From NCBI RefSeq assembly GCF_014642075.1, contig NZ_BMIK01000003.1, positions 248,001 to 312,000 of the forward strand: a DNA stretch of 64,000 nucleotides, in the 5' to 3' direction. Both the position numbers and the translations under genes were made by a program. The notes under the pieces are model-generated. The model did not search any database, had not been told where the DNA came from, and was given only the letters and a program-made list of their open reading frames with translations. Shown piece by piece: positions 1,298 to 49,471 of this stretch; the first letter of the stretch is position 1, and the number at the start of each line of letters is the position of its first letter. The stretch is from Parapedobacter defluvii. GTDB taxonomy: Bacteria > Bacteroidota > Bacteroidia > Sphingobacteriales > Sphingobacteriaceae.

Positions 1298-1307
1298 TCC
1301 GTGATAT

Positions 1308-2159: not shown

Positions 2160-2167
2160 TCGTTCGA

Positions 2168-30690: not shown

Positions 30691-30695
30691 AATTT

Positions 30696-33600
30696 TTAGA
30701 ATTTAATGCTTGCACCAAACGTGTACGTTTTATTGTTCGGATAATTGTACAAGTCAACATCACCCACCCCGGGTTCGTTGTTGATCCGTTGACCCGGACG
30801 TTCCGGATCCATGTGATCAAGCCCCGTAAACGTCAGCAGGTTGTATCCGCTGAAATAAATCCGCAGGTTCTTTACCCCTGCTTTCGACACCCAACGATCA
30901 GGCAATGTGTACCCCAATTCGGCGGTTTTCAGCCGCATATACGCTGCGCTCTGAATCCCGTTCGTTCCGGTGCGGCGACCATCGTGGCCGGTAACCGGGA
31001 AAAATCCGGGGACCCATTCTGTGCTTGCGTCAAAATAATCGGCGTTCGGATCAACCGGACGCCAGCGGTCCATGAAAAACGACAGCGTATTTTGTTCGCC
31101 GAAGGGTAACGCCTCAACCAGCAGCTCGTTGTACTTCACGAAGACACCATGTACCCCCTGGAAATCGAGCGCAAGATCGATCCCCCTCCACGAAGCACCC
31201 AGGGAAATCCCGTAGTTGAATACCGGTAATCCGATGGAGGCGATGGGATGGTTATCCTGATCGTTAATGACTCCGTCTTCGTTCCAGTCGTTCAGGTACC
31301 AGTCGCCCGGCAGCGCACCCTGTCCCTGAGGGACGGAGAAATTGCGGATGTCCTCATAATTGGTGAACATGCCGCCCGATTCCGTTCCCCACCAGATATT
31401 GGTGAAACGGCCTGCGGTGCGGTTCCGCCAATAATCATATGAATTGTTGGCTGGCGTTTCAAGCCAATCAGTTCTTTTTATTCTGGTGGCAGAAATCTGG
31501 CCGCCTACGTTGTAATAAAATTCATTGACCCGGCTGCGGTAGTCCAGCGAAACCTCATACCCGTAGTTCCGGTCGCCATTGAGGTTTTCCTGTGGCAAAT
31601 TGGCCCCTACGGTCGCCGGAATCACTGCACCGCTGGTGGCCAGCAGCCCCGAACGATCACGCTGGAACAGGTCGAACGTAGCATTCAGTTTGTTCTGCAG
31701 GAAACTTACATCCAAGCCAACATTATACGATTTGATTTGATACCATGTTAAATTGGGATTCGGGATGGGTTGCGTGGTAACCCCTCCTTGAAGACCGCCA
31801 TTAAACACCCATCCAACCGCGTTGGGGTCAAGGTTGTAACCCAGTGTCGGCGGATAGTTTCCTGCCGCATTGTCGTCACCCATCTCTCCGTACGAAGCGC
31901 GGATCTTCAATTCATTCACGAAGTCCACATTGTCTTTCATGAAATTCTCCTGGCTGACGCGCCAAGCGCCTGAAACCGACGGGAAGAATCCGAAACGCTT
32001 TCCTTCGGGGAAGCGGGACGATCCATCGTACCGGAATTTGAAGGCGAACATGTACTTAGACGCATAGTTATAATCGATCTGGCCGACCATCGATTTGCTG
32101 GAACGGTCGCCTACACCGCCGCCCTGCGCACGCTGATTGGCGTCTGCTCCTGCAAACAGGTATTCCGAATCGACGTGCATTTCCCGGAACGCACTGAAGC
32201 TATCCCAATTGCTGTAGGTTTCTTCGTAAAGCAGGAAGTTGTTAAAGTTATGCAAGCCAAAAGACTTGTTGTAAAACAGACCTAACTGCATGTTGGTATT
32301 GTTGTTAATGTTGACACCCCGAGTGACAGTGGCCGGTGTGCCTTTTTGAATGGGCGAATAGGTATCGCTATCCCGATTATACTGATAGACGGTGAACACA
32401 CGGTGGTAGTTATGGTAATCGGGCAAGCTAACCGCGTAATCATACGATCCTTTTGCTGACAGGCCATCCACTCCCGGAATCTGATATTCCAGCTGGAACG
32501 TTCCGTTGAACCGGCGATCCTTATTGAGGTTGTACCCTACGTAATCGGCATCGGTCTGTACCATCGGGTTCACACTTTCGTTCAGCACCTGAGGATCACC
32601 ATTGGGATAAAGCGGGTTGTCGTTCGCATAGAAAGACGCATTCGGGCGGGTCAGCCATGTGTTTTTATAAGCCGTCCAATCGACGCCATTCGGCTTCGTG
32701 GTATTGAGCATGATGCCGCCGAGGGATACCCGGGCTTTCAACCGTTTGGTAATCTGTGCATCAATATTCGAACGCATGTTCCAACGATCGGAATTGTAAT
32801 CGTCGCTTCGATAAGAACCGGATTGCTTTGAATAACCGAGGTTAAAAAAATACTGTATTTTGTCGCTGCCTCCATTTACACTCAGGTTATGTTGGGATTG
32901 CGGCGTGGTTTTCTTAAATACCTTGTCCATCCAGTTGTAGGAGGTCAATGTGCCGTCCAGGTAAGGTTGGAATTGTTCCTCGGGTACAAGGGGATTGCGG
33001 CGCACCATGTAATTGCCCCCGAAATCCTGCCAGTTTCTCTCGTTTCTTAACGTAAAATAGTCAATGGCATTGGTCGTTTGGGGAACATTCAGAAACTGTT
33101 GCAGGGAAGTGTTGGTGCTGAACGTAATGTCTACCTTTCCGCCCATGTCTCCGCCGCTTTTGGTGGTTACCAAAATGACCCCGTTGGCAGCACGCAAACC
33201 ATAGATTGCGGCCGTACCGTCTTTCAAAACCGATACGCTCTCAATTTCATCACCGCTCATCCGTGAAAAATAATCTTTGTCGCGGGGAATACCATCCACC
33301 ACCACCAACGGATCACCCATGCCGCGTATATCGAGACGCGTGCTGTAATCGCCCGGCGCGCTGCTTCGCTGTTGAACACGCAAGCCCGGTACTTTACCGG
33401 TCAGCATGTTTACCACGTTTTCGTTTTTCGTACGGATCATGTCGTCGCCGCCGATGGAGGATACCGCACCGGTCAGGGTTGCCTTGGTCGTTGTGGAGTA
33501 ACCGGTAACGATTACTTCATCCAGTTGCCCTGCGTCGCTTTCCAGTTGGACGGATATGGATGTCCGGTTACCGATCTGTTCAGTCAGTGTCGTTTTGCCC

Positions 33601-33839
33601 ACGTATGCGAATACCAGGGTTGTTGCATTTTCGGATACCTGGATCCGATAGGCACCGCTTTCATCCGTAGACGTGGCTTGTTCACGTCCGGTAGCCGTGT
33701 TGGCCACCACACTCGCGCCTGCCAGCGCCTCGCCGGTTTGGGCATCGGTTACCCGCCCTTGAATGGTCCGCGTCTGGGCCAAGCCATACAGCGGGACAAG
33801 CATGATCAAATAAATAAAAAAGTAAGTTAATTTTTTCAT
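30696..33839 (-). CDS. SusC/RagA-family TonB-linked outer-membrane protein
   Basis: This 1047-residue protein has a signal peptide to about residue 22 (GLAQ) and an N-terminal carboxypeptidase-regulatory-like domain (TIQGRVTDAQTGEALAGAS). The SusC junction is LDEVIVTGYSTTTKATLTGA, followed by the plug (MLTGKVPGLRVQQRSSAPGD, AAIYGLRAANGVILVTTKSG) and a full-length barrel ending in YTFGASIKF. It is the outer-membrane importer of the PUL and the first gene of the nine-gene operon 33839-19438. An approximately 320-nt leader lies between a likely transcription start (near 34157) and its start codon. Confidence 0.95.
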   Translation of the reverse strand: MKKLTYFFIYLIMLVPLYGLAQTRTIQGRVTDAQTGEALAGASVVANTATGREQATSTDESGAYRIQVSENATTLVFAYVGKTTLTEQIGNRTSISVQLESDAGQLDEVIVTGYSTTTKATLTGAVSSIGGDDMIRTKNENVVNMLTGKVPGLRVQQRSSAPGDYSTRLDIRGMGDPLVVVDGIPRDKDYFSRMSGDEIESVSVLKDGTAAIYGLRAANGVILVTTKSGGDMGGKVDITFSTNTSLQQFLNVPQTTNAIDYFTLRNERNWQDFGGNYMVRRNPLVPEEQFQPYLDGTLTSYNWMDKVFKKTTPQSQHNLSVNGGSDKIQYFFNLGYSKQSGSYRSDDYNSDRWNMRSNIDAQITKRLKARVSLGGIMLNTTKPNGVDWTAYKNTWLTRPNASFYANDNPLYPNGDPQVLNESVNPMVQTDADYVGYNLNKDRRFNGTFQLEYQIPGVDGLSAKGSYDYAVSLPDYHNYHRVFTVYQYNRDSDTYSPIQKGTPATVTRGVNINNNTNMQLGLFYNKSFGLHNFNNFLLYEETYSNWDSFSAFREMHVDSEYLFAGADANQRAQGGGVGDRSSKSMVGQIDYNYASKYMFAFKFRYDGSSRFPEGKRFGFFPSVSGAWRVSQENFMKDNVDFVNELKIRASYGEMGDDNAAGNYPPTLGYNLDPNAVGWVFNGGLQGGVTTQPIPNPNLTWYQIKSYNVGLDVSFLQNKLNATFDLFQRDRSGLLATSGAVIPATVGANLPQENLNGDRNYGYEVSLDYRSRVNEFYYNVGGQISATRIKRTDWLETPANNSYDYWRNRTAGRFTNIWWGTESGGMFTNYEDIRNFSVPQGQGALPGDWYLNDWNEDGVINDQDNHPIASIGLPVFNYGISLGASWRGIDLALDFQGVHGVFVKYNELLVEALPFGEQNTLSFFMDRWRPVDPNADYFDASTEWVPGFFPVTGHDGRRTGTNGIQSAAYMRLKTAELGYTLPDRWVSKAGVKNLRIYFSGYNLLTFTGLDHMDPERPGQRINNEPGVGDVDLYNYPNNKTYTFGASIKF

Positions 33840-34163: not shown

Positions 34164-34218
34164 CAAGGATACATGTATAGCCATAACAAATAATTAACAA
34201 AAGATTAACAAGATTAAT
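34164..34218 (-). promoter_or_regulatory. TTAAC-array promoter, site A (upstream of SusC)
   Basis: Plus-strand words: ATAAC at 34183, TTAAC at 34194, TTAAC at 34205, TTAAT at 34214 (intervals 11, 11, 9). On the minus strand, the direction of transcription, the array is followed after exactly 11 bp by TATCCTTG (34164-34171), one base off the TAnnTTTG -7 consensus. Positions 34179-34210 match 39586-39617 at 28 of 32 bases. Direct repeats at one helical turn ending just upstream of the -7 box are typical of SARP/OmpR-type activator sites. Confidence 0.6.
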
Positions 34219-34247: not shown

Positions 34248-36200
34248 TTAATCAATACCTTTATTCCAAAAAATAAACGTACCCCGATTCGTAGATGAAA
34301 CGATCTCCAGCTTACCATCTCCATTCAAATCGACGGCTAATAAATCGGATCCTGCCCCCGATCGGTTATGCACCAGCTCCGGTTCAAAGCGTGCCCCGCC
34401 CGGTGCGTTTGCATCGCGGACTGTCCGGAAGCAATACAATACAGCAGATCCCTGTGGATCGGGGTCAAGGTGCGTATCCAAATGCGACCAGTAACGCTTA
34501 CCGGCAATGAAGTCAGGGATACCGTCGCCATCGATATCGGCAAACGTTGTTCCGTGCAGCTGGGAAAACGTTACGTCCCCCGCATTTTCTGTCGAATAAT
34601 CATCCATAATCATATGCCGTGTAAACTGTACGGCTCCGGATGCGTCCTGCTGCTGTTCGTACCAGGCCAAACCAAAACCATGCGCATTCAAACTGGTTAC
34701 CACATCGTTCCTGCCATCTCCATTGACATCGTATACCGCCATGACGCTACCGCCCATTCCCCCACCACGGTGACCATAACGGCCAAATGCAACGGGATGG
34801 TAAACCCAGGTTTTTCCTGCATCCAGCTCTCCGGGTTGCTCCCACCAACCATTTGGATTGATGATATCCGGACGGCCGTCGCCATTGATATCCCCCACTC
34901 CAAATCCGTGGGCGGTATAATATCCCGTTTCCGAAACCACGTATACTTTCCAGGGTTTGCTCGGATCGGCGGGGTCAAACTTGGAGTACTTCAATGTCTG
35001 GTCGCCACTGGTCCCATATACGATCTCAGGCCGCCCGTCACCATCAATGTCTGTGAAAACTGTAACTTCTGAGTTTATATTACCCGGAATGACCGCATGC
35101 ATCTCCCAGCGGCGAGATGCTCCTTTGGGGTTGATATAAAGACGGCCGAATGGCGACGCCGAAAATACATCCGGCCAACCGTCTCCATTGAAATCAAAGG
35201 TATATTGACAGTTTACTTCGGAAAATTGCTGGGAAGGATTATAGGTAACTCCTTGAAATATCTCGCGGTACGAGGTAAAATCCGGACCGTAATAAACGTG
35301 GGGGCCAGCCACCACATCCATGATACCATCCTGGTTGATATCGGCCGCCGCCGAACTGAACGAATAGTACATATCGCTCAGTTGCTGTACATCATACCGA
35401 GCGGAAGTTTCTTCCTTTGGCGTAAAGCGAAGCGCAAGATCCTTGTATTTGAAATCTTTGTACCGTACCTCCGCTTTTCCCTTTACATATAATGCGATGG
35501 GTCCATATTCACCAAAATCTTCATCCGCTGCGCCGCCGGGGCCGTTGCCATCGTTAATGAATCCTCTTAAGATATTCATATCCAACACACACTCCAACTG
35601 GTTCCATCCATTTACCTGAAAAGCCGTCTCGGGCTGGGGGATGGGCAACAACGGCCCTGTATGCTCCCGGCTACGGTTTGGTTGCCGTTGCCTTCCCTGC
35701 TGATTGCCGTCGGATGAATGGGCCGTTTTGGGATCTGCCGGTGGTGCCACCCGCATCATTCCCCCGGCACGCCGCAACATCATACGGCTTACTTCGTTTC
35801 CCTTGTCGTCCAATACCAATCCATATGCGGCCGATTCGTCGTTCTTCAACGAAACCAAGACACCTTTCCATCCGCTGCCTGTTTTTTCAAGCCGGAGCAA
35901 AACGCCTGCTTCTCCGTCGCCTTCCATCTTCACCAGCGTGTTGAACGTCACATCCTGAAAAGACTGATCCAATAACAGCAGACTGGCTGTTGTATCGGTT
36001 GATTTGCCTATCAACTCACCATTCTCCGCACGCCAATCGGCAGTGCCGATGGGTTTCCAACGTGTCAGACTCGTCCCTTTAAATTGATAATCGGGCTTGA
36101 AGCTAAGGCCCCTCCCGTTGGTTTCACCCGCTTGCTGGCCATAGGACATTCCTGTTCCGCAGACAAAGACGAATAATATGATTAACATTCTTTTCATCAC
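34248..36200 (-). CDS. Exported DUF1080 + FG-GAP/VCBS-repeat protein
   Basis: The 650 residues comprise a signal peptide (to about residue 21, MSYGQ), a jelly-roll DUF1080-like (3-keto-disaccharide hydrolase) domain at about 35-258 (FKGTSLTRWKPIGTADWRAE, GEAGVLLRLEKTGSGWKGVL), and seven FG-GAP-type calcium-binding repeats from about 286 to the end (DINQDGIMDVV, DFNGDGWPDVF, DIDGDGRPEIV, DINGDGRPDII, DVNGDGRNDVV, DIDGDGIPDFI, DLNGDGKLEIV), forming a beta-propeller. A low-complexity linker rich in Gly/Arg/Gln lies at 145-185. DUF1080 domains occur in 3-ketoglycoside cleavage enzymes, but other members only bind. It is the last gene of the operon 39417-34248, 10 bp after the isomerase-like gene. 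Confidence 0.8.
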   Translation of the reverse strand: MMKRMLIILFVFVCGTGMSYGQQAGETNGRGLSFKPDYQFKGTSLTRWKPIGTADWRAENGELIGKSTDTTASLLLLDQSFQDVTFNTLVKMEGDGEAGVLLRLEKTGSGWKGVLVSLKNDESAAYGLVLDDKGNEVSRMMLRRAGGMMRVAPPADPKTAHSSDGNQQGRQRQPNRSREHTGPLLPIPQPETAFQVNGWNQLECVLDMNILRGFINDGNGPGGAADEDFGEYGPIALYVKGKAEVRYKDFKYKDLALRFTPKEETSARYDVQQLSDMYYSFSSAAADINQDGIMDVVAGPHVYYGPDFTSYREIFQGVTYNPSQQFSEVNCQYTFDFNGDGWPDVFSASPFGRLYINPKGASRRWEMHAVIPGNINSEVTVFTDIDGDGRPEIVYGTSGDQTLKYSKFDPADPSKPWKVYVVSETGYYTAHGFGVGDINGDGRPDIINPNGWWEQPGELDAGKTWVYHPVAFGRYGHRGGGMGGSVMAVYDVNGDGRNDVVTSLNAHGFGLAWYEQQQDASGAVQFTRHMIMDDYSTENAGDVTFSQLHGTTFADIDGDGIPDFIAGKRYWSHLDTHLDPDPQGSAVLYCFRTVRDANAPGGARFEPELVHNRSGAGSDLLAVDLNGDGKLEIVSSTNRGTFIFWNKGID

Positions 36201-36210
36201 TCTTTTCGAT

Positions 36211-37122
36211 TTATTTAATGTGGCTCTTTACATGTTCAATGCCCCACCTGGCCACGTCGTCGTAATTAATGTCCTGGAATTTGCCACTCCATTGCGCAAT
36301 AACATAAGTCCCCTTGAAGCCCATTTTTTCCGCCAGCTGCACGCATCTGTCAAAGTCGTAGGTAGTGTGTTCCATTTGATCGTTAAAATCGACCATTTTC
36401 GCCGAGACAACATGTGCATAAGGCAGGATTTTTTCCAGCGACTGCATCATCACCTCAGCAGAATATTGCGGTATATAATTTCCAAAGTCAGGTTCTGTAT
36501 AAACATGGGCACCGGTTGCTATCCGGACATGTTTATCCGCATCCATTTCGATTCCGAAGTGGTTTGCAGTGATAATCGTGAGTTTCTTGGATTTGGCGTA
36601 GGCGTTCAGTTCGGTAAGCGATTGGATACTTTTCTCGACGGAACCACTCGGTACACCCGGATTAATTCGTACACACGTTGAGCCTAGAAATGCTGCGGCA
36701 TCCATCCACAATTTAACGTCGTTGATGCTCTTTGTGCGTTCCGACTCATCGGTGGATGCCAGGTTGTAAGAAATCCGGTCGATTTGAACATTTAACAATT
36801 CGCTCTTTGCCGCTTTAATTTTATCACGAACCCGGGCAAGGTAATCCGGTTCCAACGACTCAAAGTGTTCGTTCCAAAACTCAATTTTGCGAATGCCGAA
36901 TTTATCCCGGTGGTGCTGTGGTACGTCCAACAATGTTAATTCGTCTTTAATGGTATCCCATTCCTTCGGTTTTGTCCGTTGAAACCGGTACCTAAACAAT
37001 AGGGTACCGAGTGCTAAGCGATCCATTTTATCTTTTGAACTGGCAATGCTGCCCAGTATCGGCATCATTCCAACGGAAAGGGCAAGCCCCCCTGCTTTTA
37101 CCACAAACTCTCGTCTTTTCAT
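36211..37122 (-). CDS. Exported sugar phosphate isomerase/epimerase-fold (AP endonuclease family 2-like) protein
   Basis: This 303-residue protein has a Tat-like N-terminus (MKRREFVVKAGGLALSVGMM) with the twin Arg and hydrophobic core, so it is probably exported folded, with its metal. The body is a TIM barrel of the xylose-isomerase-like superfamily: FGIRKIEFWNEHFESL, STCVRINPGVPSG, LTIITANHFGIEMD and AHVVSAKMVDFND carry the usual His/Glu/Asp metal ligands. It is encoded between a quinoprotein dehydrogenase and a DUF1080 protein. In known 3-keto-sugar pathways, members of this fold isomerise or epimerise the oxidised sugar; that role here is inference. Confidence 0.8.
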   Translation of the reverse strand: MKRREFVVKAGGLALSVGMMPILGSIASSKDKMDRLALGTLLFRYRFQRTKPKEWDTIKDELTLLDVPQHHRDKFGIRKIEFWNEHFESLEPDYLARVRDKIKAAKSELLNVQIDRISYNLASTDESERTKSINDVKLWMDAAAFLGSTCVRINPGVPSGSVEKSIQSLTELNAYAKSKKLTIITANHFGIEMDADKHVRIATGAHVYTEPDFGNYIPQYSAEVMMQSLEKILPYAHVVSAKMVDFNDQMEHTTYDFDRCVQLAEKMGFKGTYVIAQWSGKFQDINYDDVARWGIEHVKSHIK

Positions 37123-37188
37123 TCGTAAATAGTTATTGTTAACAGCCTCGTGAAACCTGCATTTTATTGACCTGTAAAACCCATGATA

Positions 37189-39417
37189 TCATAATTTCTG
37201 ATCGGGCAGCGCATATACCAGGTAGCCCTTGGGCACGTCAGTTTCATCTTTTGATTTATCTTTAAGTCCTCCAACCGAACACACCACCAAATACTGCCGT
37301 CCGTTTACCTGGTACATGGCGGGTAAGCCAAATGGATTCATCCTGCCCAGATCGGTAGACCACAGTATATTCCCGTTGTCCGTATCGTATGCATAGATTC
37401 TTCCGTCCAAACACGTAGAGAAAAGCAAACCGGTTGACGTAACCACCATGCCTTTTCCCTGGGAGCCATTCGGCATGCTGAGATTCTTGCTGCCGGGAAT
37501 ACGATCGTCATTCCCCAACGGAATCTTCCATTTGATTTTTCCCTCGTTCAGGTCATAAGCAACGATCAGCGACCATGGCGGGGTCAATAGGTTGGGAACA
37601 CCCAACCCCCAGTTATTGGTTTCGACATACTCCACTTTCGGGCCGGTGTACTCGATGGGATAGTCCGTCATACGCCCCCCTATAGGCGGAGACTCAATGG
37701 GAACGCCACCTGATGCAACGACAGGGCCTTCAGGCAGTTCGGGTTCACCTCCACGTCCACCCGGACCCCGTTGTGCCTCGGGAGTCAGGTATGCATAAAT
37801 ATCCGAAACCTCTGTCTCCGTAAGGTGCGGGAAACCGGGCATCCGCCCTTTACCGACGGCCATAACAGCTTTGAATGCCTCTGCGTTTACCCGGGCGTTC
37901 AGGTTAACGAGAGTTGCTCCTAAACCGTTAATACCCGCGCGATCCTCCCCGTGGCACGTTTGACAATTTTGTGTATACAGGGCTTTTCCCCGGGCAAGCA
38001 TTTGGGGTGAGTTTCCTCCCCGCGGAGAAGTGGGTTCCCGATTTTTAAGACTATAAAAATCAGCAAGTTCCTGCGTCTGCACATACACGATCCCATTCTT
38101 GGGATCCGCGGCGGTGTTCCCATAGTTGGCCCCACCAACCGCACCCGGATTGGTAACCACCTCATAATTATCTGAAAGCGGCTGAAACAATCCATTCTTG
38201 GCGGCGGCCACACGTGTGGTCCACTTTTCTTTTTCTTCGGGGGAAAAATAGGGGTTAATGTCATCCACGGTAACAATCTGCCTGTTAAAGGGAGGCACCA
38301 CGGTTGGGAATGGTTGCGTGGGCCAGGCGTGTTCATTCGGCATGTCGCTCGCAGGTACAGGCCTTTCCTCAATCGGCCACAAGGGTTCGCCCGTGACGCG
38401 GTCGAATACAAAGAGAAATCCGTGCTTGGACGCAACCGCTACTGCATCAATTTTTTTTCCATCGTGGTTGACAGTGATCAACTGCGGTGCGGCGGTCAGG
38501 TCATAGTCCCAAATATCGTGGTGCACGGTCTGAAAATGCCACAGCCGCTTTCCGGTACGTGCATCTAACGCTAAAATGCAATTGCCAAACAAATTGCTTC
38601 CCGGTCTATCTGCACCATCGTAGTCATAAGTTGGGGAACCGATCGGGAAATAAGCAATGCCACGGTCGTCATCCACGGAAATTTCTCCCCACGTATTTGT
38701 GCCCCCAACGTATTTATATGCTTCTTCCGGCCACGTGTCATAGCCATATTCTCCCGGGTGCGGAATGGTGTGAAACACCCAAACCAATTCTCCCGTGATA
38801 ACATGGTATGCACGGAGGTGACCGGGGCCCGAAAATAAATTTTCACCGGGCGCAGACCCCAGAATAATCAAGTCTTCAAAAACCTTACCCGGGGTGGTCG
38901 ATGTTGCCCGGCCAAAGGTAGATGGATCGCGATCCAAATCTTGTTTGAGGTCTACATATCCATTCGTACCGAAGGTCGTGATGGATTTGCCTGTGTTTGC
39001 ATCAATGGCCTGTAAGGTATTGTTGAGACAAATCAGCAACCGCTTTTCCTTTTTATCCTTGCTTTGCCAAAAATTAACGCCCCGCTGAATAATCCCACGC
39101 AAGTTGGCATGAATCCATAGCTCTTTCCCACTGGTTGCATCGATCGCCACCAGCGAGTTATTCTTTGCCAACACATACATGATCCCATCGACAATAATGG
39201 GATTAAACTTGTAGCCTACGTTATCGTCGGTAGGATAAAAGAATGCGAGTTCAAGTTGGTTTACATTTTCTTTTGTAATCTGCTTAAAGTCTACGTACTT
39301 CGAATGATCCGGCCCACCGCCATAGTCATTCCATTCCTTGTACTTTGTCTGGGTGCCTGACTGGCATCCCCACACAACACCACTCAGTAAAACAATAAAA
39401 ATAAAGGTTCTAAGCAT
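37189..39417 (-). CDS. PQQ-type quinoprotein dehydrogenase with inserted cytochrome c domain, lipoprotein
   Basis: This 742-residue protein has a lipoprotein signal with Cys18 (GVVWGCQSG). The eight-bladed quinoprotein propeller shows TSGKELWIHANLRGIIQRGV, DARTGKRLWHFQTVHHDIWD and DTDNGNILWSTDLGRMNPFG, which match glucose/quinate-type PQQ dehydrogenases. A cytochrome c domain is inserted near the middle with heme motif C485-Q-T-C488-H489. The propeller resumes after it (NNWGLGVPNLLTPPWSLIVA). It would oxidise a sugar or alcohol in the periplasm and pass electrons through its own heme. No PQQ biosynthesis gene is seen in the window, so the cofactor may come from elsewhere. It is the first gene of a three-gene operon driven by site B. 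Confidence 0.85.
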   Translation of the reverse strand: MLRTFIFIVLLSGVVWGCQSGTQTKYKEWNDYGGGPDHSKYVDFKQITKENVNQLELAFFYPTDDNVGYKFNPIIVDGIMYVLAKNNSLVAIDATSGKELWIHANLRGIIQRGVNFWQSKDKKEKRLLICLNNTLQAIDANTGKSITTFGTNGYVDLKQDLDRDPSTFGRATSTTPGKVFEDLIILGSAPGENLFSGPGHLRAYHVITGELVWVFHTIPHPGEYGYDTWPEEAYKYVGGTNTWGEISVDDDRGIAYFPIGSPTYDYDGADRPGSNLFGNCILALDARTGKRLWHFQTVHHDIWDYDLTAAPQLITVNHDGKKIDAVAVASKHGFLFVFDRVTGEPLWPIEERPVPASDMPNEHAWPTQPFPTVVPPFNRQIVTVDDINPYFSPEEKEKWTTRVAAAKNGLFQPLSDNYEVVTNPGAVGGANYGNTAADPKNGIVYVQTQELADFYSLKNREPTSPRGGNSPQMLARGKALYTQNCQTCHGEDRAGINGLGATLVNLNARVNAEAFKAVMAVGKGRMPGFPHLTETEVSDIYAYLTPEAQRGPGGRGGEPELPEGPVVASGGVPIESPPIGGRMTDYPIEYTGPKVEYVETNNWGLGVPNLLTPPWSLIVAYDLNEGKIKWKIPLGNDDRIPGSKNLSMPNGSQGKGMVVTSTGLLFSTCLDGRIYAYDTDNGNILWSTDLGRMNPFGLPAMYQVNGRQYLVVCSVGGLKDKSKDETDVPKGYLVYALPDQKL

Positions 39418-39570: not shown

Positions 39571-39626
39571 CAAGATTAATCTGACAGCCATAATAAATCA
39601 TTAACAAAGCATTAACACCTGTTAAC
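39571..39626 (-). promoter_or_regulatory. TTAAC-array promoter, site B (upstream of the quinoprotein dehydrogenase)
   Basis: Plus-strand words: ATAAT at 39590, TTAAC at 39601, TTAAC at 39612, TTAAC at 39622 (intervals 11, 11, 10). The minus-strand -7 candidate TAATCTTG (39571-39578) follows the array after exactly 11 bp, as at site A. The leader to the ATG at 39417 is about 147 nt. The rest of 39418-39810 has no gene. A 6-bp stem GTCTCA/TGAGAC at 39720-39739, downstream of the regulator gene, lacks a T tract. Confidence 0.6.
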
Positions 39627-39810: not shown

Positions 39811-42366
39811 CTACGAAAGGATTGTCTTGTAGTCTTTGCCAAATTCCTCCCCATAAATATGGCGGTATTCGTTACAGAAATTTTCGAAAGTCTGCGTGGC
39901 GAGTGAGTGGTTGCCCATATAGGCAAGGGCCCTACACTTGATGGACATGGCCTCCTCGTGAACAGGGTCGAAATAAAAGATGTTATTGGCAAGCTCAACC
40001 ATAAATTCCGGATCATCCGAGATTTGGGCATTTTCCGCAAAACGCATGTAGGTATTGATCACCTGGATGGAAACCTCGGCCTTAAATGAGTCGAGCCACT
40101 CATAGTCTGTCTCGGAAAGAAACCCACCCCGTTGGACAATGGCTGACAATTCTTTAATTCGCTCTTTATCTAACCAATCTTTGTTGGTGACAATAGAAAG
40201 GTAATTTTTGTAGTCGATGTAAACATCACTATCTGCCTGGAATCTCCAATATCCGGTCTCTTTAGAGATCTTTGTGTTTCCCAACCGTTCCAGAATGGTA
40301 TTAATTTTTGCAATGTTGACCGAGCGGTTGTTGCGGGCACTCTCAGCAGATTTATCAAACCAGAATTGTTCGGTTAATTTTTCCGAGCTGATACCCCGAC
40401 CCCGTCGTAACGTATGAAGTAAAACCACCAGGAATATTTCTTTGATAAGTGGCGTGAAACTACGGGTCATGTCTACACCTTCGGAATCAAAGAGCTGCAA
40501 ATCTCCACCAAAAAGAAATATGCTGTTTTTGTCCTGCTCTTCTTCCACCACGATTGGATGATGAGGCGCTACCTCACCCTTCAGTTCCGCCATCGTGCCG
40601 GACCTGGATACCTGCTTCGCTTTTACACGCCCTTTCCGTATAAAAATGTATGCAGTCAACAACCCAAGTATACCCAATGTAATGTAGAATAAACTTCCCA
40701 CACCTCGCCCCTTCGGTAAGACGTTATTCGCGGCATCATAAGGAAGTGGTGGACTAAATAACGAATAAACTTTGGCGATAGTGATAATATCTCTTTCGTC
40801 ATAATACAGCGTAACCGCCGCAAAACGCCTGCTATTGGGGCAATAATATAAATCAGAAAAGGACTGGATGTCATGGAAGGCATACGGAATGGGAGCAGCC
40901 AGTTCCTTCAAATCGGGCTGGGTCAACGAACCGACCACCAACTGTAAATTTGCATTGTATTTGTGTTTGGGAAATACAAGTCCGTAGTACTGCCCCGCCC
41001 CCTCATTAACCACCAACGAATTGGCCCACACAAAATCTTCTTCGTCCGGATTAAGTTCATAGATTTTCGACAGCGTCTTGTTTCTGACGTCAAAGAAAAC
41101 CAAATCGTAAATATTCTTTGGATTGAGCATTTGCTGGCCCGAGACACTCCCGTAGCCTCCCAGAATGTATGCCCCGTTTGGTGTGGCCCCCAATGCCGCA
41201 AGGTAACGTGGAGTAAACGGCTCCCCGCCAACGGCAACCGGCTGCCAAGTGCCATCAGGTGCATACCGTTGTATTTCGTTTTTGAAAAGAAAATGACCAT
41301 ACCCTCCAACAAAATACAAACTGCTATCCACGGGTGAGCTGAATTTGTTAAAATGAAGGTAACTCGTACCGGCCCCGGGATAGATAAAGTTTTCTGACCA
41401 TTTTTGTGATGCAAAATCAAAAACTGAAATGGTTTTTTGATCGATGCATATGTTCAACAGTTGATTGTTTAATGTGTCAAAAAAAGACTGATTCCCATTC
41501 ACTAACAACAACGGTCCGGATTGATATTTGAAAACACTGCGTTGGCCCGTTGGGATATGGATTTTTAACAGGGAGTCCCTTCCAACGATGAATACACTTT
41601 CTGTCCGGGGATCAAATGCTGTACTGGCCTGTCCGTTTATTTTAACATCCTGAAGCAATCCCCACTCGTAATGTAATCGCTTGATCCATTGAGGATTGAT
41701 AGCCAAAGCAGTCATCCCTTTTATCACATCATTTATTTCGGTGCCTTTATCGTCGTCCAACGGCCAATGGTGCAATAAGCGTTTCCCGTCCCGGATCTGA
41801 ACATTCCGTATCTTCATCGCCGGCACATCGGTGGTCTTGAACTCCTTGTAATCGTTGTATCCAAACAAGACTTTCAAACAACTGCGCGCATCGATAGCCA
41901 ACTTCTCGGTATAAATACGATCGCCACATTTCACTGTGATTAAATGGGTATGCGCATCTAGTTTGATCGCAATGGGAATCCACTCGTTAAAAAGTTTGGC
42001 AGAGTCGATGTTAAAGGCGATGTCGGAAAATTTTCCACCCAATACGATTTTAAAATGTTTCTCTACATTCAGCGAACGATCATAAAGCAAATCAATATTT
42101 GTTTTATCATCGGCAATGATCCGTACAACGTAACCGAAATAATCCGAACGGTTGGGCATGAACGAGAGCTCGAATGATAACTCGGCTTCGTCATCCAGAC
42201 ATATCTGCCTATCCTTGCTTAAATCCAATCCCGTCCGTTGATCCAGAACGGCTTCGTGGCTGGCAAAACCTAATCCGTATTGGGCATTAACCGCTAAGGG
42301 AAATACAACTACACTTCCCAGGATACAACAGATTACATAAAAAGCCCACGGTTTCAATGCCCACAT
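39811..42366 (-). CDS. Membrane-tethered regulator: periplasmic LamG-like + propeller sensor, TM helix, SARP-like DNA-binding domain
   Basis: The 851 residues comprise: a signal/anchor at 1-28; a LamG-like beta-sandwich at about 30-210 (ending RNVQIRDGKRLLHHWPLDDD); a kelch/galactose-oxidase-like propeller at about 225-545 (YFVGGYGHFLFKNEIQRYAP, GAYILGGYGSVSGQQ); one membrane helix at about 558-576 (SLFYITLGILGLLTAYIFI) followed by basic residues (positive-inside); a winged helix at about 617-715 (SFTPLIKEIFLVVLLHTLRR, NRSVNIAKINTILERLG, GYWRF wing); and a TPR/BTAD-like C-terminus. The winged helix fits the SARP/OmpR layout. So a periplasmic signal would act directly on a cytoplasmic DNA-binding domain in one protein, without phosphorelay. 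It is flanked by the three operons carrying TTAAC arrays. Its own promoter may be GATATTTG at 42458-42465. Confidence 0.78.
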   Translation of the reverse strand: MWALKPWAFYVICCILGSVVVFPLAVNAQYGLGFASHEAVLDQRTGLDLSKDRQICLDDEAELSFELSFMPNRSDYFGYVVRIIADDKTNIDLLYDRSLNVEKHFKIVLGGKFSDIAFNIDSAKLFNEWIPIAIKLDAHTHLITVKCGDRIYTEKLAIDARSCLKVLFGYNDYKEFKTTDVPAMKIRNVQIRDGKRLLHHWPLDDDKGTEINDVIKGMTALAINPQWIKRLHYEWGLLQDVKINGQASTAFDPRTESVFIVGRDSLLKIHIPTGQRSVFKYQSGPLLLVNGNQSFFDTLNNQLLNICIDQKTISVFDFASQKWSENFIYPGAGTSYLHFNKFSSPVDSSLYFVGGYGHFLFKNEIQRYAPDGTWQPVAVGGEPFTPRYLAALGATPNGAYILGGYGSVSGQQMLNPKNIYDLVFFDVRNKTLSKIYELNPDEEDFVWANSLVVNEGAGQYYGLVFPKHKYNANLQLVVGSLTQPDLKELAAPIPYAFHDIQSFSDLYYCPNSRRFAAVTLYYDERDIITIAKVYSLFSPPLPYDAANNVLPKGRGVGSLFYITLGILGLLTAYIFIRKGRVKAKQVSRSGTMAELKGEVAPHHPIVVEEEQDKNSIFLFGGDLQLFDSEGVDMTRSFTPLIKEIFLVVLLHTLRRGRGISSEKLTEQFWFDKSAESARNNRSVNIAKINTILERLGNTKISKETGYWRFQADSDVYIDYKNYLSIVTNKDWLDKERIKELSAIVQRGGFLSETDYEWLDSFKAEVSIQVINTYMRFAENAQISDDPEFMVELANNIFYFDPVHEEAMSIKCRALAYMGNHSLATQTFENFCNEYRHIYGEEFGKDYKTILS

Positions 42367-42768: not shown

Positions 42769-45700
42769 CTACATACGCGCACGCTTCAGCGCGCCGGTCA
42801 ACTGGAGCGTCTTTCCCATTTTAGTATTGAAACTCGCCGTATGATCACCGATCCGCAGTGTCAACTTTCCTCCTTTTTCTGAAAAGACGCGTACTTCCGT
42901 CAGCTTTCCATCTTCCCAAGAAAGATCAATCACAAAACCACCGCGCGCACGAAGCCCTTTTACTGTCCCGGTTGTCAAAGCGGAAGGCAATGAGGGCAAC
43001 AATTGTACCTCAAAGCGGTTGCGCTTCAGCGGGACATGGCTTTGCAGCAGCATTTCCGCAATTGCAGCCGTCGCACCGAAATTCCCGTCAATCTGGAAAG
43101 GGGGATGATTATCAAACAAGTTCGGTAATGTCTTCTCTCGCAACAATACACCCAAAAGCTTGTAGGCATGATCGCCATCGTGCAAGCGATTCCACATATT
43201 AATCTTCCATGCCAATCCCCAGCCGGTACCGTCATCTCCCCGGGCAATCAGGGTCTTTTTGGCAGCTTCCGCGAGTTCAGGCGTACCAGTCACCGATATT
43301 TGATTACCGGGATGGAGGGCAAACAAATGGGAGGTGTGCCGATGGTGCGGTTCTACTTCCTTGTAATCTTCCACCCATTCCATTACTCTACCGGTTGTTT
43401 CACTGATCCGAATGGGTGCCAAACGTGAAAGTGTTTTCAGGCACGTATCCCGGAAACCCTTATCGACACTTAGAATCTTCGTGGCAGCGATACAGTTTGT
43501 CAACAGGTCATGGATAATTTCCAAGTCCATGGTTGCACCATAAGTAAATACAGAATGCTCACCGTTCGGCAGGATAAATGCGTTTTCCGGCGAATAAGAA
43601 GGGTTTGTCACCAACTTTCCGGCTACGGGCGTTCCCGCTGGTGCCTCTACCAAGAAATCCAAAATAAATTCAGCAGCTCCCTTCATGAGCGGATATGCAC
43701 GTTGCCGTAGAAACGCCGTATCCAATGTATAGCAGTAATGCTCCCAGGGATGCTGGGCTAACCAAGCGGCCCCCACCGGCCAGATACCCTGCGGGCCGTC
43801 TGCGGGTGCGGTGAACCCCCATGCATCGGTCAGGTGATGTACCACCCAGCCGTCAGCGCCATACAATGCCCTGGCGGTACGTTCGCCGGGTTTCACCAAG
43901 GCCTCCGTAAGATCAAACAGTGGCAGGTGCATTTCTGAAAGGTTCGTAATTTCTGCCGGCCAATAGTTCATTTGCAGGTTAATATTGGTGTGGTAATCCG
44001 CATTCCAAGGTGGATTCATCTGCCATGCCCACAATCCCTGCAAGTTAGCGGGCATCGTGCCCGGCCGGGAACTGGAAATAAGCAGGTACCGTCCATATTG
44101 GAAGAATGTCTCGACCAAACGAGGCGGCAATTCACCGGTCTTTTTCGCTTCCTCCAACAGCTCGTCCGTAGCCAGTTGTTCGGCTTTTGCGGTCTGCGAG
44201 GTGCCCAACGCAAGCTGCACCCGGTTATAGTAAGCCTGGTGTTCGTTGACGTGTGCAGTTTTGGCTACGTCATAAGATCGAAGCATGGCCCGTGCAATCC
44301 GGGTGGCACAGGTATCTTCGGGCCGCCCCGGGAAATCCAGCACTTTTTCATCCAGGTGCCTCAGTCCGGGATAGTTGGTCGCACCCGCTATATACAAGGT
44401 CAATGTATCCGCACCGGCTACGGATAACACATCGTTGTTCAATTGAAGTTCACCACCTACAGCCACCGCCTTGACCTGTGCCGCAAAACGCAGGCCTCTT
44501 GTGTTACCCTGGGCATCCTTGATCGGGAGTCTGCCTTTCAAGATCAACGACGATTTGTCTGTCGGGTGAGGCATTACCTCGGCATCCTGCTGGCGACGGA
44601 GTGTAAACGAGCTGCTTATCTTTCCGGCACCATCCGCTGTAAACCGGACGATGATGACATCGTCTTCGGTAGACGCAAAGCTCTCCCTTGTATACCACGT
44701 CCCTTTATGCTGATACCGAACGGAAGCGATACCGGTGGCGAGGTCAAGACTTCGGGTATAATGATCAGGGTTAAGATGCGGCGTGTCAAACCAAAGTTCG
44801 CCCAATGATTGATAAGGTTTTACTCCCCGGGGGCGCCCCATCATGGTTTGCTCGGCCAATTTCACAGCCTCGTTATTTTTATCTTCGAAGAGTAAACGAC
44901 GTACTTCGGGCAGCGTTTCCAGCGATTCGGGATTGTTAGGATCAAGCGTATAGCCATCCCAAAGCGAGCTCTCATTGAGTTGGATCCGTTCATCCGCAAC
45001 ACCCCCAAACACCATGGCACCCAGTCGCCCGTTGCCGATGGGCAGTGCCTCCTCCCATACGCGGGCCGACTGCTTATACCAAAGAACATTCCTCCCCTCG
45101 GGTTGTTCTCCTCCGTCCGAGAATCTCGCCCGGTCCATCCAATCTGCCCGGATCTCTCCCGTACGCGAGCTGGCAACAGAAGTCTTTGCCGCGGCGTTCA
45201 ACATAAAATCAACGAGGAGCGCCGGATTGGGAAAGCTGTGGGGATGGTGCTTGAACCCATGTTTCATCAGCACCGTGATATCACCGCCTGCGGATCTAAT
45301 TTTTTTCTCAAAGGCAAGGGTTTGTGTCTCCGGATCAACGGCCTCATCTTCATCGGCACAGAGCACCAATATCGGATACGCACCCGTAACAATGTCGGCG
45401 ATTTTATCCATGGGACTTCCGTTAAACGATTCAATTGACTGACTACCGTCAAGGCCGTACGCCTTGCGGATATCTCCCGAAAGTGGACGTCCCTGCTGAG
45501 CATATGCCCGCATGTCAAGCAATGGATTATCTATATATACACCAGCGACCTTATCCGGATTGGCGGCCGCCCAATTCAATGCGTATACGGCACCTCGGCT
45601 CATCCCTTCCAAAAGCGCCTTACGGTTCAATCCCGCACGATAAAGTAAGGTATGAAACGTATTCCACAACGAAATCGCCTCTTTATTGCCCAACAGCTCA

Positions 45701-46581
45701 GCCGCATCGCAGTAAGCGATATGAAAACCACGCTCCAGCAATGCGATGTCGGCTTGGGGCTCATGACCCCAAAAACGGGCCCGCCATACCCAAGGTCGGT
45801 TGTCAGCAACCCGTTTGGGCTTCACAACCGTGCATGCCCGGCCATTCAATGAAAAATCAGCCGCAGCGTATCCATAAAAAGAACCGGGTGTAAAGGACTG
45901 ATCCAGGTGTTCAAAGAGATCGTAGGTTGTATCAAACTGCTGTGTGACCTGCTGCGATAGCCGTTTGGCAATGATACCCGCGGCTTCTTCGCCCGGATGA
46001 ATCTTGTCGATGTACAGATCCGGCCTGTCTACCAATAAGGAATGCATATCGAGCACCTCAATCCCTTCTTCCCATGCAACACGTTGCATACGCGGGATAA
46101 TCTCCCGGACCAGAATGGGATCCCATATCTGACTGGTATCCGTTTCAAAAGATTTGAACGGTAACATCAATATAACCCGGGGATGCGATGGCAACCGGGA
46201 AAATGACCGTACCAGTTCACGGCAATCATCGACAAACTCGCCATAGTGGGGGCGATTGATTGCTTTGGCATCGTTACCCCCCAAGTCAATGAATACAATA
46301 TCGGGATTGAACTTCAATGCGTCTTGATAAGCTTGGGTTTTCCAATACGGTGAGTCGCCCTTTCGAAGCAGCGTAGTACCCCCGATGCCGAAATTCGACA
46401 CCTGATAACGTCTGCCCAGTAAGGTTTGCAACTGGCCGGGATAAGCACGTTCGGCGGGATTTGTTATCCCGTGTCCACCCGTAATGCTGGCGCCGATACA
46501 TGCCACCCGTACCTGGGCTGAAGCAAAAAAGCTAATGAGTAAAAAGAAAAGGGTGAGTAAGGACGTTGCCTGTTTCATCAT
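42769..46581 (-). CDS. Three-module exported enzyme: SGNH hydrolase + alpha/beta hydrolase + GH95 alpha-L-fucosidase-like
   Basis: The 1270 residues start with a signal peptide, 1-22. Module 1 (about 22-215) is an SGNH/GDSL hydrolase: GASITGG with Ser32, FGIGG, GGND (101-104) and DKIH with Asp192/His195. Module 2 (about 220-470) is an alpha/beta hydrolase: nucleophile Ser328 in EGMSRGA, acid in CADEDEAVDPE (about 408-418), His in MKHGFKHHPHSF. Module 3 (about 499-1265) is GH95: LWYKQSARVWEEALPIGNGR, NINLQMNYWPAEITNL, HHRHTSHLFALHPGNQI and DGNFGATAAIAEMLL are family-conserved blocks. GH95 enzymes remove alpha-1,2-L-fucose or L-galactose. The fused esterase modules suggest removal of acyl groups from the same decorated glycan (for example acetylated fucosylated xyloglucan or pectin side chains). 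It is encoded 37 bp after GH71/99-like paralogue 3. Confidence 0.88.
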   Translation of the reverse strand: MMKQATSLLTLFFLLISFFASAQVRVACIGASITGGHGITNPAERAYPGQLQTLLGRRYQVSNFGIGGTTLLRKGDSPYWKTQAYQDALKFNPDIVFIDLGGNDAKAINRPHYGEFVDDCRELVRSFSRLPSHPRVILMLPFKSFETDTSQIWDPILVREIIPRMQRVAWEEGIEVLDMHSLLVDRPDLYIDKIHPGEEAAGIIAKRLSQQVTQQFDTTYDLFEHLDQSFTPGSFYGYAAADFSLNGRACTVVKPKRVADNRPWVWRARFWGHEPQADIALLERGFHIAYCDAAELLGNKEAISLWNTFHTLLYRAGLNRKALLEGMSRGAVYALNWAAANPDKVAGVYIDNPLLDMRAYAQQGRPLSGDIRKAYGLDGSQSIESFNGSPMDKIADIVTGAYPILVLCADEDEAVDPETQTLAFEKKIRSAGGDITVLMKHGFKHHPHSFPNPALLVDFMLNAAAKTSVASSRTGEIRADWMDRARFSDGGEQPEGRNVLWYKQSARVWEEALPIGNGRLGAMVFGGVADERIQLNESSLWDGYTLDPNNPESLETLPEVRRLLFEDKNNEAVKLAEQTMMGRPRGVKPYQSLGELWFDTPHLNPDHYTRSLDLATGIASVRYQHKGTWYTRESFASTEDDVIIVRFTADGAGKISSSFTLRRQQDAEVMPHPTDKSSLILKGRLPIKDAQGNTRGLRFAAQVKAVAVGGELQLNNDVLSVAGADTLTLYIAGATNYPGLRHLDEKVLDFPGRPEDTCATRIARAMLRSYDVAKTAHVNEHQAYYNRVQLALGTSQTAKAEQLATDELLEEAKKTGELPPRLVETFFQYGRYLLISSSRPGTMPANLQGLWAWQMNPPWNADYHTNINLQMNYWPAEITNLSEMHLPLFDLTEALVKPGERTARALYGADGWVVHHLTDAWGFTAPADGPQGIWPVGAAWLAQHPWEHYCYTLDTAFLRQRAYPLMKGAAEFILDFLVEAPAGTPVAGKLVTNPSYSPENAFILPNGEHSVFTYGATMDLEIIHDLLTNCIAATKILSVDKGFRDTCLKTLSRLAPIRISETTGRVMEWVEDYKEVEPHHRHTSHLFALHPGNQISVTGTPELAEAAKKTLIARGDDGTGWGLAWKINMWNRLHDGDHAYKLLGVLLREKTLPNLFDNHPPFQIDGNFGATAAIAEMLLQSHVPLKRNRFEVQLLPSLPSALTTGTVKGLRARGGFVIDLSWEDGKLTEVRVFSEKGGKLTLRIGDHTASFNTKMGKTLQLTGALKRARM

Positions 46582-46618
46582 AATGGGTTTATTATTGTGT
46601 TATGAAGTTGATATGCTG

Positions 46619-47926
46619 TTAATTTACTCCTTCCGCCTTGCGCACGGGCAATTTTAGGGACAATGGCACTTCATTGCGCAGCACTTTGGCCGCTTCACCC
46701 GTCAACCAGAGATAATGATCGGAGGGCAATCCTTCCATACCCAAAAATGAGGTTGTCTGGCTAACCGGCGGCGTATCCGTCGTTTTGAAAATTGCAGTGG
46801 CTTCATTTACCTCGTCAAACATGGCTACGTACAGCATCGGTGCACCCAATCGTAATACGGTGGATATCTGCTGCCAATAGAATTTGCCACCCATGCGTGG
46901 AATGGAGCCGACAGGTTTGATATCATCCGGGAATTCGTATTTACTGAGATTATGCCAGCTGAAGCCCGGATAAACGCATGGAACATATTCAACACCGTTC
47001 TCTCTACACCATTTCATATCATCCAGGGTATTGTCCCGCAAACGGTCCATGTCGTTATGCAACAGCGGACTGTAACGCTGTACCGTCCAGGGCAACACAA
47101 TATCTGCCATCCGGATCAGTTCGTGCAGGTATGGATCATTCAAACAGTCGGCGTTAAGCTGCCGGAACGCGGTGGGTACGCCGAGCATTACCGTACATCC
47201 CCCATATACGGGATCGTTCTTCAGAAAATCGATCAACCGCTCCAGTCCGATGTTCCGGATGTTATAAGGCCGGTCGGGGAAACCTACCCCCCAAATGGCA
47301 ACTACCGGCTTTCCATTGTGATGCAGGTACGTTTTCTTGCCGGCTTGGTTGGTCACTTTTAATTCATCCACCAAATACTTCCAGTCGTCAATAATCGCGG
47401 AACAATCTTCTCCTTTTGCACGCAGGCCAGACAGGTCATACATCACCGCTATTGCACGATCATACGTGGAAGCCGCGTCAAAAGCGTTTTTCAAAATCGT
47501 TGCTGCCGCATTCGTCCGGTTTTCGGGCCTCGCATTGCTGAAAAACCGTTGCATGAATACCCCATCCACCCCATAGTCGTGCATCCACTTAAAATGGAGA
47601 TCCACCGTACTTTGATCATACGAACTGAAAAACCGGGCGGACGCTCCATTCGGAAGTTTGAATGGAGTTGGGTAGGTTTTTTTATATTCGGATACATCCG
47701 GCCACATGTCGATACCTGTCCGATCTTCATTTCCATAACTATAGCCCTTGGCGCCCGATCCATCCCCTTCTGCCCGGAACCAGCCCTGGTAACCCGCCAT
47801 AACAAGTCCCTTGTAAGAAGGGTAGGCAGTTTGGTCACTGTGCTTGGTCTGTGCCATGGCGGCGAATGCAGTGAAGTAAAACAAAGCGGCAAAAAGATAG
47901 CTTTTTAATTTTAATGGAAATATCAT
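46619..47926 (-). CDS. GH71/99-like exported glycosidase (paralogue 3)
   Basis: This 435-residue protein has a signal peptide ending near AMAQ (residue about 25). The fold motifs are shared with the other two copies (GLVMAGYQGWFRAEGDGSGA, DLHFKWMHDYGVDGVFMQRF, VMLGVPTAF) but it is clearly more diverged. The C-terminal AMFDEVNEATAIF keeps the E-x-x-E spacing (Glu372, Glu375), with Ala replacing the Gly that follows in the other copies. It heads an operon with the SGNH/GH95 enzyme, under site C. This suggests a different, fucosylated substrate from that of paralogues 1 and 2; the substrate is not known. Confidence 0.85.
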   Translation of the reverse strand: MIFPLKLKSYLFAALFYFTAFAAMAQTKHSDQTAYPSYKGLVMAGYQGWFRAEGDGSGAKGYSYGNEDRTGIDMWPDVSEYKKTYPTPFKLPNGASARFFSSYDQSTVDLHFKWMHDYGVDGVFMQRFFSNARPENRTNAAATILKNAFDAASTYDRAIAVMYDLSGLRAKGEDCSAIIDDWKYLVDELKVTNQAGKKTYLHHNGKPVVAIWGVGFPDRPYNIRNIGLERLIDFLKNDPVYGGCTVMLGVPTAFRQLNADCLNDPYLHELIRMADIVLPWTVQRYSPLLHNDMDRLRDNTLDDMKWCRENGVEYVPCVYPGFSWHNLSKYEFPDDIKPVGSIPRMGGKFYWQQISTVLRLGAPMLYVAMFDEVNEATAIFKTTDTPPVSQTTSFLGMEGLPSDHYLWLTGEAAKVLRNEVPLSLKLPVRKAEGVN

Positions 47927-47952: not shown

Positions 47953-48007
47953 CTAAAATAGCCGCTCCCATTAAAAAAAGCTTAATAAAGCATTAACCAC
48001 ATTTAAT
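47953..48007 (-). promoter_or_regulatory. TTAAC-array promoter, site C (upstream of GH71/99-like paralogue 3)
   Basis: Plus-strand words: TTAAA at 47971, TTAAT at 47982, TTAAC at 47993, TTAAT at 48003 (intervals 11, 11, 10, identical to site B). TTAAYAAAGCATTAAC is shared with site B. The minus-strand -7 candidate TATTTTAG (47953-47960) follows after 10 bp. The predicted leader is only about 20 nt to the ATG at 47926. Confidence 0.58.
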
Positions 48008-48190: not shown

Positions 48191-49471
48191 CTAAAAATCT
48201 GTAAAATCCCATGGTGCCCGGTATGGCCGTGACAGCATCAGGTTTGCGGCGGCATCATCAAACACTTCTTTTTTCGGATTCCACGTTACATCACGCTGCA
48301 ATTCATACACAATATTCACTGCATTGCACACCGATGCGGTACGATGTCCAATTTCGACATCGGCTACGGGGCGGCTCCTTTTTTTGATGGCGTCTATCCA
48401 GTCCTGATAATGGTTATCGCTTTGGTAAAGCCGTTTGTCGGAAGGTTTGAGCGTTTGTTCAACGATCGTCTCCGGTGTCGATCGTAAAAAACTTCGCGAC
48501 ACTTCGATGGTTCCCTCTGTACCAATAAATTGTATAGCATTTCCCGGGCCCCAAAGTTTATGGTGTACCGTTACGCCGTTAGCGTAACGAAACGAGGCAC
48601 CCTCCTCTGCCAATGGATCCTGCGGTGCATGAAAGGAAACGGGCCCTGAATCATCCATCCCCAATGCCCATTGGACAATGTCAAACATGTGGGCACCCCA
48701 GTCGGTAATGAAACCACCGCCAAAACCATGATAATTCCGCCAGCCCGCCCAATCCTTATCGTTTTCGATGGGGGGCGCTAATACAGGATGATAGCCGCGA
48801 TAAAGCGACGGCCCGATCCACCTATTCCAGTCGAGCTCACCGGGTATGGGTTGCGAAGGAAGGTCGCATTGCCGAACTGGCCCTCCAACAGACACATTGA
48901 TTTCCTTAATATCACCAATATAGCCATTTGTTATCAATTCACAGGCGTGGCGAAAGGGCTTCCAGGAGCGCTGCATACTGCCCGTCTGTAAGACACGCTT
49001 GTACTTTCTCACTGCATTGACCATCGCCCGGCCTTCGGCAATCGTCAATGCCAAAGGCTTTTCGCAATACATATCTTTGCCCATTTTGGCGGCATCAATG
49101 CAGATTTGCGCATGCCAGTGGTCCGGTGTAGCCACTACTACCGCATCAATATCCTTTCGCTCCAACAATTCACGGTATTGGGCGTAGCCCGCCACTTGCG
49201 TTGCTACCTTCTTTGTGTTGGCTGCTGTGGCACGTTCCATAAAGCGGGCTTGCTTTTTTGAGTCCACATCGCTTACTGCCAATACGATTGTTTCCGGACA
49301 ATCATTGATGCTGCCCAATAGTCCAAGTGCTTGTTTGCCAACACCGATATAACCCAGCGTTATGCGGTCACTCGGAGCAAGAAATCCTTTTCCTCCCAAC
49401 ACATGCCTCGGTAATACGGTAAAGGCAGCGGCACCCAATGCCATGTTTTTGATAAATGTTTTTCTTTCCAT
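48191..49471 (-). CDS. Gfo/Idh/MocA-family oxidoreductase, exported
   Basis: This 426-residue protein has a Tat-like leader (MERKTFIKNMALGAAAFTVL, with RK rather than RR) ending about residue 28. The Rossmann nucleotide-binding loop is GYIGVGKQALG. VVATPDHWHAQICIDAAKMG and CEKPLALTIAEG (the EKP motif, catalytic Lys) are diagnostic of the family. The C-terminal sheet domain contains GGGFITDWGAHMFDIVQWAL. Such exported members often carry bound NAD and act on sugars or aminosugars (some are GH109 alpha-N-acetylgalactosaminidases). The substrate is not clear. It is a single-gene unit upstream of site C; a -7 candidate TATCTTTA lies at 49538-49545. Confidence 0.85.
   Translation of the reverse strand: MERKTFIKNMALGAAAFTVLPRHVLGGKGFLAPSDRITLGYIGVGKQALGLLGSINDCPETIVLAVSDVDSKKQARFMERATAANTKKVATQVAGYAQYRELLERKDIDAVVVATPDHWHAQICIDAAKMGKDMYCEKPLALTIAEGRAMVNAVRKYKRVLQTGSMQRSWKPFRHACELITNGYIGDIKEINVSVGGPVRQCDLPSQPIPGELDWNRWIGPSLYRGYHPVLAPPIENDKDWAGWRNYHGFGGGFITDWGAHMFDIVQWALGMDDSGPVSFHAPQDPLAEEGASFRYANGVTVHHKLWGPGNAIQFIGTEGTIEVSRSFLRSTPETIVEQTLKPSDKRLYQSDNHYQDWIDAIKKRSRPVADVEIGHRTASVCNAVNIVYELQRDVTWNPKKEVFDDAAANLMLSRPYRAPWDFTDF

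Follow-up and report, generated by a model that had tools for sequence, protein, structure and literature searches.

The locus raises the question of which protein controls its PUL operons, and in particular whether the 851-codon gene lying between them encodes that regulator and of what kind such a regulator would be. We examined this in the window, the whole 64,000 bp stretch of Parapedobacter defluvii DNA analysed here, and in related genomes. The SARP homology of the cytoplasmic part, a conserved membrane topology, repeat arrays that follow the regulator from genome to genome and the presence of few other regulators lead us to propose that the protein is a one-component, membrane-tethered SARP-type activator of PULs, a reading to which we assign a probability of roughly 0.78; its DNA binding, activation and glycan sensing are all inferred. 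The original prediction had likewise seen a SARP-type regulator here, and the same homology, topology and arrays support it; there are no binding, expression or ligand data. Table 1 lists the features concerned.

Table 1. Features of the regulator gene, arrays, promoter boxes and predicted target genes in the window
Feature	Position	Strand	Basis or remark
Regulator gene, 851 aa: signal peptide, ectodomain, one TM helix, cytoplasmic SARP-like module	39811..42366	-	
Signal peptide, residues ~1-28	42283..42366	-	Hydrophobic N-terminus; cleavage site by eye
LamG-like region, residues ~30-225, weak assignment	41692..42279	-	Laminin G matches few
Kelch propeller, residues ~230-545	40732..41679	-	Matches within residues 313-434; limits by eye
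Transmembrane helix, residues 558-576	40639..40695	-	Hydropathy, conserved topology
OmpR-type winged helix, residues ~613-719	40210..40530	-	Profile matches
BTAD-like helical region, residues ~720-851	39814..40209	-	Pfam BTAD and alignment with L161
Array before PQQ-dehydrogenase gene (start 39417): GTTAAT, GTTAAT, ATTATG, 11-bp period	39589..39616	-	
-7-like box TAATCTTG, 10 bp after PQQ-dehydrogenase array	39571..39578	-	
Array before SusC gene (start 33839)	34182..34209	-	
-7-like box TATCCTTG, 10 bp after SusC array	34164..34171	-	
Array before GH99-like gene 46619-47926	47970..47997	-	
-7-like box TATTTTAG, 9 bp after GH99-like array	47953..47960	-	
Predicted target: SusC and SusD genes	28756..33839	-	Operon membership inferred
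Predicted target: PQQ dehydrogenase/cytochrome c, TIM-barrel and DUF1080/FG-GAP genes	34248..39417	-	Operon membership inferred
Predicted target: GH99-like gene and GH95/esterase gene	42769..47926	-	Operon membership inferred

The ORF is a real protein-coding gene, as had been supposed, since it is open from its ATG and conserved both within Parapedobacter and more widely. Among named records, the nearest relatives are four from Parapedobacter, with 72-86% identity across residues 3-851 or more. Of 301 genomes searched in the family, 90 gave a match in a single-sequence search (E up to 1e-5), in most cases, though not all, near full length. The single-sequence search of a sample of the class matched 6 of 395 genomes (the own genome is counted, and one match is a short kelch match), and a profile of the cytoplasmic part matched 7 of 395. 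Thus, the regulator family is centred on Sphingobacteriaceae, and members elsewhere are rare. The homologues split into a group A (33-86% identity) and a group B (21-29%). In a tree of the cytoplasmic part, the 54 group-A members form a single clade (midpoint rooting, local support 0.75), and group B as labelled forms no clade under that rooting. We found no description of the family among the open-licence PubMed Central papers listed by our searches and no NCBIfam match for the window protein. Elsewhere in the own genome BTAD matches occur in L122, in L124, which is the genome's family-B copy, and in L123, in a protein that looks TPR-like by eye.

The membrane topology is well conserved. A hydrophobic N-terminus is present in 79 of 82 aligned homologues, and the segment ahead of the cytoplasmic part reaches the hydropathy threshold for a transmembrane helix in 80 of the 82. 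The mean net charge over 15 residues is +3.9 after this segment vs +0.4 before it, and the charge is higher after than before in 73 homologues. With the signal peptide and this charge bias, the ectodomain is therefore most likely periplasmic and the C-terminus cytoplasmic, and the single membrane helix of the original prediction holds, with its positive charge inside. The kelch ectodomain holds as well, as the kelch model has a match in every one of the 79 scanned ectodomains (E up to 0.1); the best E is 7.7e-23 and that of the window copy 5.9e-5. The LamG label given to the N-terminal region remains weak: at the same threshold Laminin_G_2 matches 5 and Laminin_G_3 only 2 of the 79, and hhalign against L159 gives a probability of 10% (E 0.003). 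This L159 protein (97-2208, plus strand) is itself a relative with two clear Laminin_G_3 domains, a transmembrane helix and a SARP-like module and without a kelch match, a sensor swap; the gene after it is sulfatase-like by eye. We also note that in three B loci that are among the most divergent (L098, L099, L121) a 357-aa gene with an array in front of it, LamG-like by eye in L098, is the neighbour of the regulator gene and precedes SusC.

The most conserved fifty residues of the regulator are those of the winged-helix stretch. A profile of residues 613-719 aligns with the OmpR-type winged helices of the own genome with an hhalign E of 2.8e-5 and a probability of 74%, which falls to 51% when the whole cytoplasmic part is the query; the same profile does not match the LuxR domains of that genome (probability 0.2%). 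BTAD is the commonest Pfam match of the cytoplasmic part: with E up to 1 allowed, 25 of 81 members have it, the best at 4.8e-5, and only 7 of the 81 have Trans_reg_C (best 0.02). A cytoplasmic profile aligns collinearly with L161 over 225 columns that include both winged helix and BTAD (hhalign probability 95.4%, E 1.9e-8). L161 (1420-2712, minus strand) carries BTAD at E 1.2e-26 and a Trans_reg_C match just under the cut-off. Because of the OmpR-type match and this collinear alignment, the cytoplasmic part is, as judged by profile comparison, SARP-like in both halves.

The predictions made for this part of the protein fared unequally. The SARP-type domain is borne out by the L161 alignment and the winged helix by its OmpR-type match, the latter without confirmation from a structure model: AlphaFold2 models were poor (mean pLDDT 38 for the full protein and 52 for the cytoplasmic part), and only five close sequences were admissible. 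The Pfam HMM comparison is weak by itself, for BTAD as well as for Trans_reg_C, and the window copy alone misses the cut-off with a BTAD E of 0.15. The region called TPR-like is better identified as BTAD-like. The matches of a PDB search with the cytoplasmic profile were a designed TPR protein at E 0.0024 and two others near E 1; none of them is a SARP. L161 has no TM-like segment and comes from another family of the class, so untethered SARP modules exist there too.

ToxR and CadC have an N-terminal cytoplasmic winged helix and a C-terminal periplasmic sensor, and they are known to activate while tethered to the membrane. The regulator is like them in being one protein with a periplasmic sensor, one transmembrane helix and a cytoplasmic winged helix of OmpR type; it differs in its reversed domain order (sensor first), its BTAD-like region and its kelch sensor. 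A membrane protease might instead cut the regulator and release the SARP module as a soluble factor. Conservation is lowest at residues 551-600 (mean 0.26 in family A), which comprise the transmembrane helix and the stretch behind it, as expected of a linker or cleavable region. However, for the 131 neighbour proteins of 20 A loci the 25 commonest families listed include no protease, and the precedent of ToxR and CadC also favours activation without release. We consider such cleavage unlikely, though not to be discounted.

The window has three arrays at a period of 11 bp and 0-1 at every other period from 8 to 22, and all three are accompanied by a TAnnTTTG-like box that matches at 5 of 6 letters and lies 9-10 bp past the last unit. 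The TTAAC arrays of the original prediction are thus real, and they are better described as three RTTAAT-like units 11 bp apart on the minus strand. Because TTAA is palindromic, an array could be assigned to either strand; at L167:5507-5620, arrays between divergent genes are readable on both strands, and one array might serve two promoters there.

The same period recurs across the family. With a seed (GTTAAT) and period taken from the three window promoters only, 53 family-A loci gave 60 arrays at period 11 vs 0-10 for each of the remaining periods between 8 and 22. Counted by locus, a period-11 array is present in 39 of 54 A loci (window included) vs 3 of 27 B loci (Fisher p 2e-7, a guide only since the loci are related), and other periods from 8 to 16 give arrays in 2-9 of the 54. 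A motif-free test of the A loci gave 11 perfect triple-hexamer hits at lag 11, and no other lag from 7 to 24 had more than one, overlapping hexamers being counted apart. T-tracts lie between the units at positions that were not used to find the arrays, and 24 of the 42 A arrays left after removal of redundancy have a TAnnTTTG-like box at offset 37 or 38, vs 0-5 at other offsets from 28 to 94. No array was found in 15 of the 54 A loci at the strict threshold, or in 10 of them at a looser threshold with the box required; under the latter setting other periods from 8 to 15 also give hits, in 4-18 of the 54.

This layout resembles that of the SARPs, actinobacterial activators such as AfsR and OtcR that likewise consist of an OmpR-type winged helix followed by BTAD and that are established by experiment to contact sigma region 4. 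According to two papers (PMC10936776, PMC4393881), SARP sites are direct repeats 11 bp (or 22) apart, the last of them 8 bp from the -10 element; here too the direct repeats are 11 bp apart and end close to a putative -10/-7 element. The regulator's arrays differ in having three units, AT-rich sites and 9-10 bp to the box rather than 8 bp, and the protein differs in that the module is fused behind a periplasmic sensor and transmembrane helix and is associated with Bacteroidota-type promoters. A protein bound just upstream of the -7 box could also block the polymerase, so that the regulator would repress from its arrays until ligand relieved the repression, but repeats one turn apart at a fixed spacing from the box fit the layout of a SARP activator, and we give little credence to repression.

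Genome-wide searches used a longer pattern with TTT linkers that had been refined on family-A loci, so the excess near regulators described below is not fully independent evidence; the window-seeded period test and the motif-free test are free of this circularity. With up to three mismatches the pattern had five matches in the 5.8-Mb own genome, representing four sites, three of which are the window promoters. The fourth (L164:7455-7482, on contig C1 of G000) precedes a 136-aa gene and a TonB-receptor gene, and its box spacing is unusual by eye. There were 209 matches in 40 genomes with a family-A gene (none in 3 of these) vs 57 in 40 without one, 24 of which carry group B only. The reversed pattern gave 71 vs 32 (p 0.008), so base composition accounts for some of the difference. 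Within the genus, the genomes with the gene have 5, 4, 5, 7 and 6 matches and those without it 0, 0, 0 and 1 (reversed pattern: 1, 1, 0, 1 and 1 vs 1, 0, 0 and 2). Of the 127 sites in 19 genomes, 36 are no more than 10 kb away from a family-A regulator where 0.65 would be expected, and 17 of the 19 contribute. On the period, reversed-pattern, group and motif-free controls we reject the view that the arrays are an artefact of AT-rich sequence. In genome G415 arrays are found on contig C1 and the two detected regulators on C20 and C21, which suggests that action at a distance is possible. These arrays (L165, C1:488000-507000) precede a SusC-like gene and a GH99-like gene that resembles the one at 46619 in the window.

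Group B has arrays of its own. TTAACC at period 12 occurs in 20 of 27 B loci vs 1 of 54 A loci (p 4e-12), and other periods give 0-7 arrays in the B loci. The B arrays (L103-L105, L107-L111, L114-L118 and others) usually stand before a SusC operon, and 16 of 21 three-unit B arrays have a TAnnTTTG-like box at offset 39 or 40. The A and B motifs share TTAA and partly cross-match (12 of 54 A loci have TTAACC at period 11, and 16 of 27 B loci have GTTAAT at period 12); thus, period separates the groups better than letters do. The recognition-helix region of the regulator differs between the groups as well. That array geometry is kept between A and B while the period changes with the protein is our strongest argument that the regulators read the repeats, although there are no binding data. 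The link between regulator and arrays drawn in the original prediction is strengthened accordingly, as both the presence of arrays and their period track the regulator group from one genome to the next.

Directly behind an A array and box we find 70 genes, 7 of which are the regulator itself. The other 63 include 17 TonB plug, 8 GH95, 8 GH99, 6 GH3 and 5 GH92 genes; from GH92, GH95 and GH99 one might guess that the ligands are alpha-mannoside- or fucose-bearing glycans. Other regulator types are sparse in the A loci examined. Among the 25 commonest families listed for the 131 neighbour proteins of 20 A loci there are 5 of AraC type, 3 of ECF-type sigma/sigma-70, 3 ROK and 2 LytTR, and the own-genome OmpR and LuxR profiles match only 2 and 4 genes, respectively, across all 54 A loci. 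These AraC-type, sigma and LytTR neighbours, together with the pattern matches in genomes that lack a family-A gene, leave room for the arrays to be bound by some other factor, for example of OmpR or AraC type, with the kelch protein controlling something else. Such a factor would have to be reconciled with the near absence of matches from congeneric genomes without the gene, with an array period that switches with the regulator group and with the few OmpR and LuxR matches, and we consider it very unlikely.

The regulator also differs from the PUL regulator types with which we compared it. It shares a periplasmic sensor and PUL context with the HTCS of Bacteroides PULs, whose sites average 21 bp apart according to PMC3878776. 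The window protein has no Pfam match to histidine kinase, receiver or AraC domains at E up to 5, and HTCS membership is rejected on these grounds; no sigma or FecR domain was matched at the same threshold, and membership of the ECF sigma/anti-sigma type is likewise not met. That the regulator is a divergent SusR-like protein is very unlikely: according to the same paper SusR is also a one-protein PUL regulator and binds maltose in the periplasm, but its sites are predicted to come in pairs separated by 67 or 77 bp, not as repeats at 11 or 12 bp, and its DNA-binding domain is described as unlike any other, whereas that of the regulator is OmpR/SARP-like (spacings above 30 bp and direct similarity to SusR lay outside the comparison).

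As a membrane-tethered SARP-type activator the regulator might work as follows. By sequence analysis, its signal peptide and single transmembrane helix place the kelch (and perhaps LamG-like) sensor in the periplasm and the SARP-like winged-helix/BTAD module in the cytoplasm. There the module is inferred to bind, most probably, RTTAAT repeats spaced by one turn of the DNA, the last one 9-10 bp from the putative -7 box. Protomers side by side on the DNA would then touch the sigma factor and so activate, as published for AfsR. The signal is inferred to be glycan fragments arriving via SusC/SusD, and the ligand could bring protomers together or alter their pose through the membrane. Since some arrays have no regulator close by, we infer that the same regulator may also act far from its own gene.

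More broadly, it seems reasonably likely that these proteins represent an undescribed class of PUL control, in which tethered SARP activators combine interchangeable periplasmic sensors (kelch, or two LamG in L159) with group-specific operator codes (RTTAAT at 11 bp, TTAACC at 12 bp). Regulons would then be readable from sequence in genomes whose PUL control is unknown. If the tethered-activator reading is right, it supplies a family of PUL regulators along with the probable layout of its operators and promoters, makes target operons predictable across Sphingobacteriaceae, including those distant from the regulator gene, and extends SARP-style activation to a membrane-tethered protein in Bacteroidota. 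Promoter search by a tethered factor would become directly testable, and groups A and B, with their different repeat periods, offer specificity swaps.

Finally, the window's DUF1080/FG-GAP, xylose-isomerase-like, PQQ dehydrogenase/cytochrome c and GFO/IDH/MocA genes lie close to one another (34248-39417 and 48191-49471), a gene set that we take to be reminiscent of oxidative 3-keto-glycoside breakdown.
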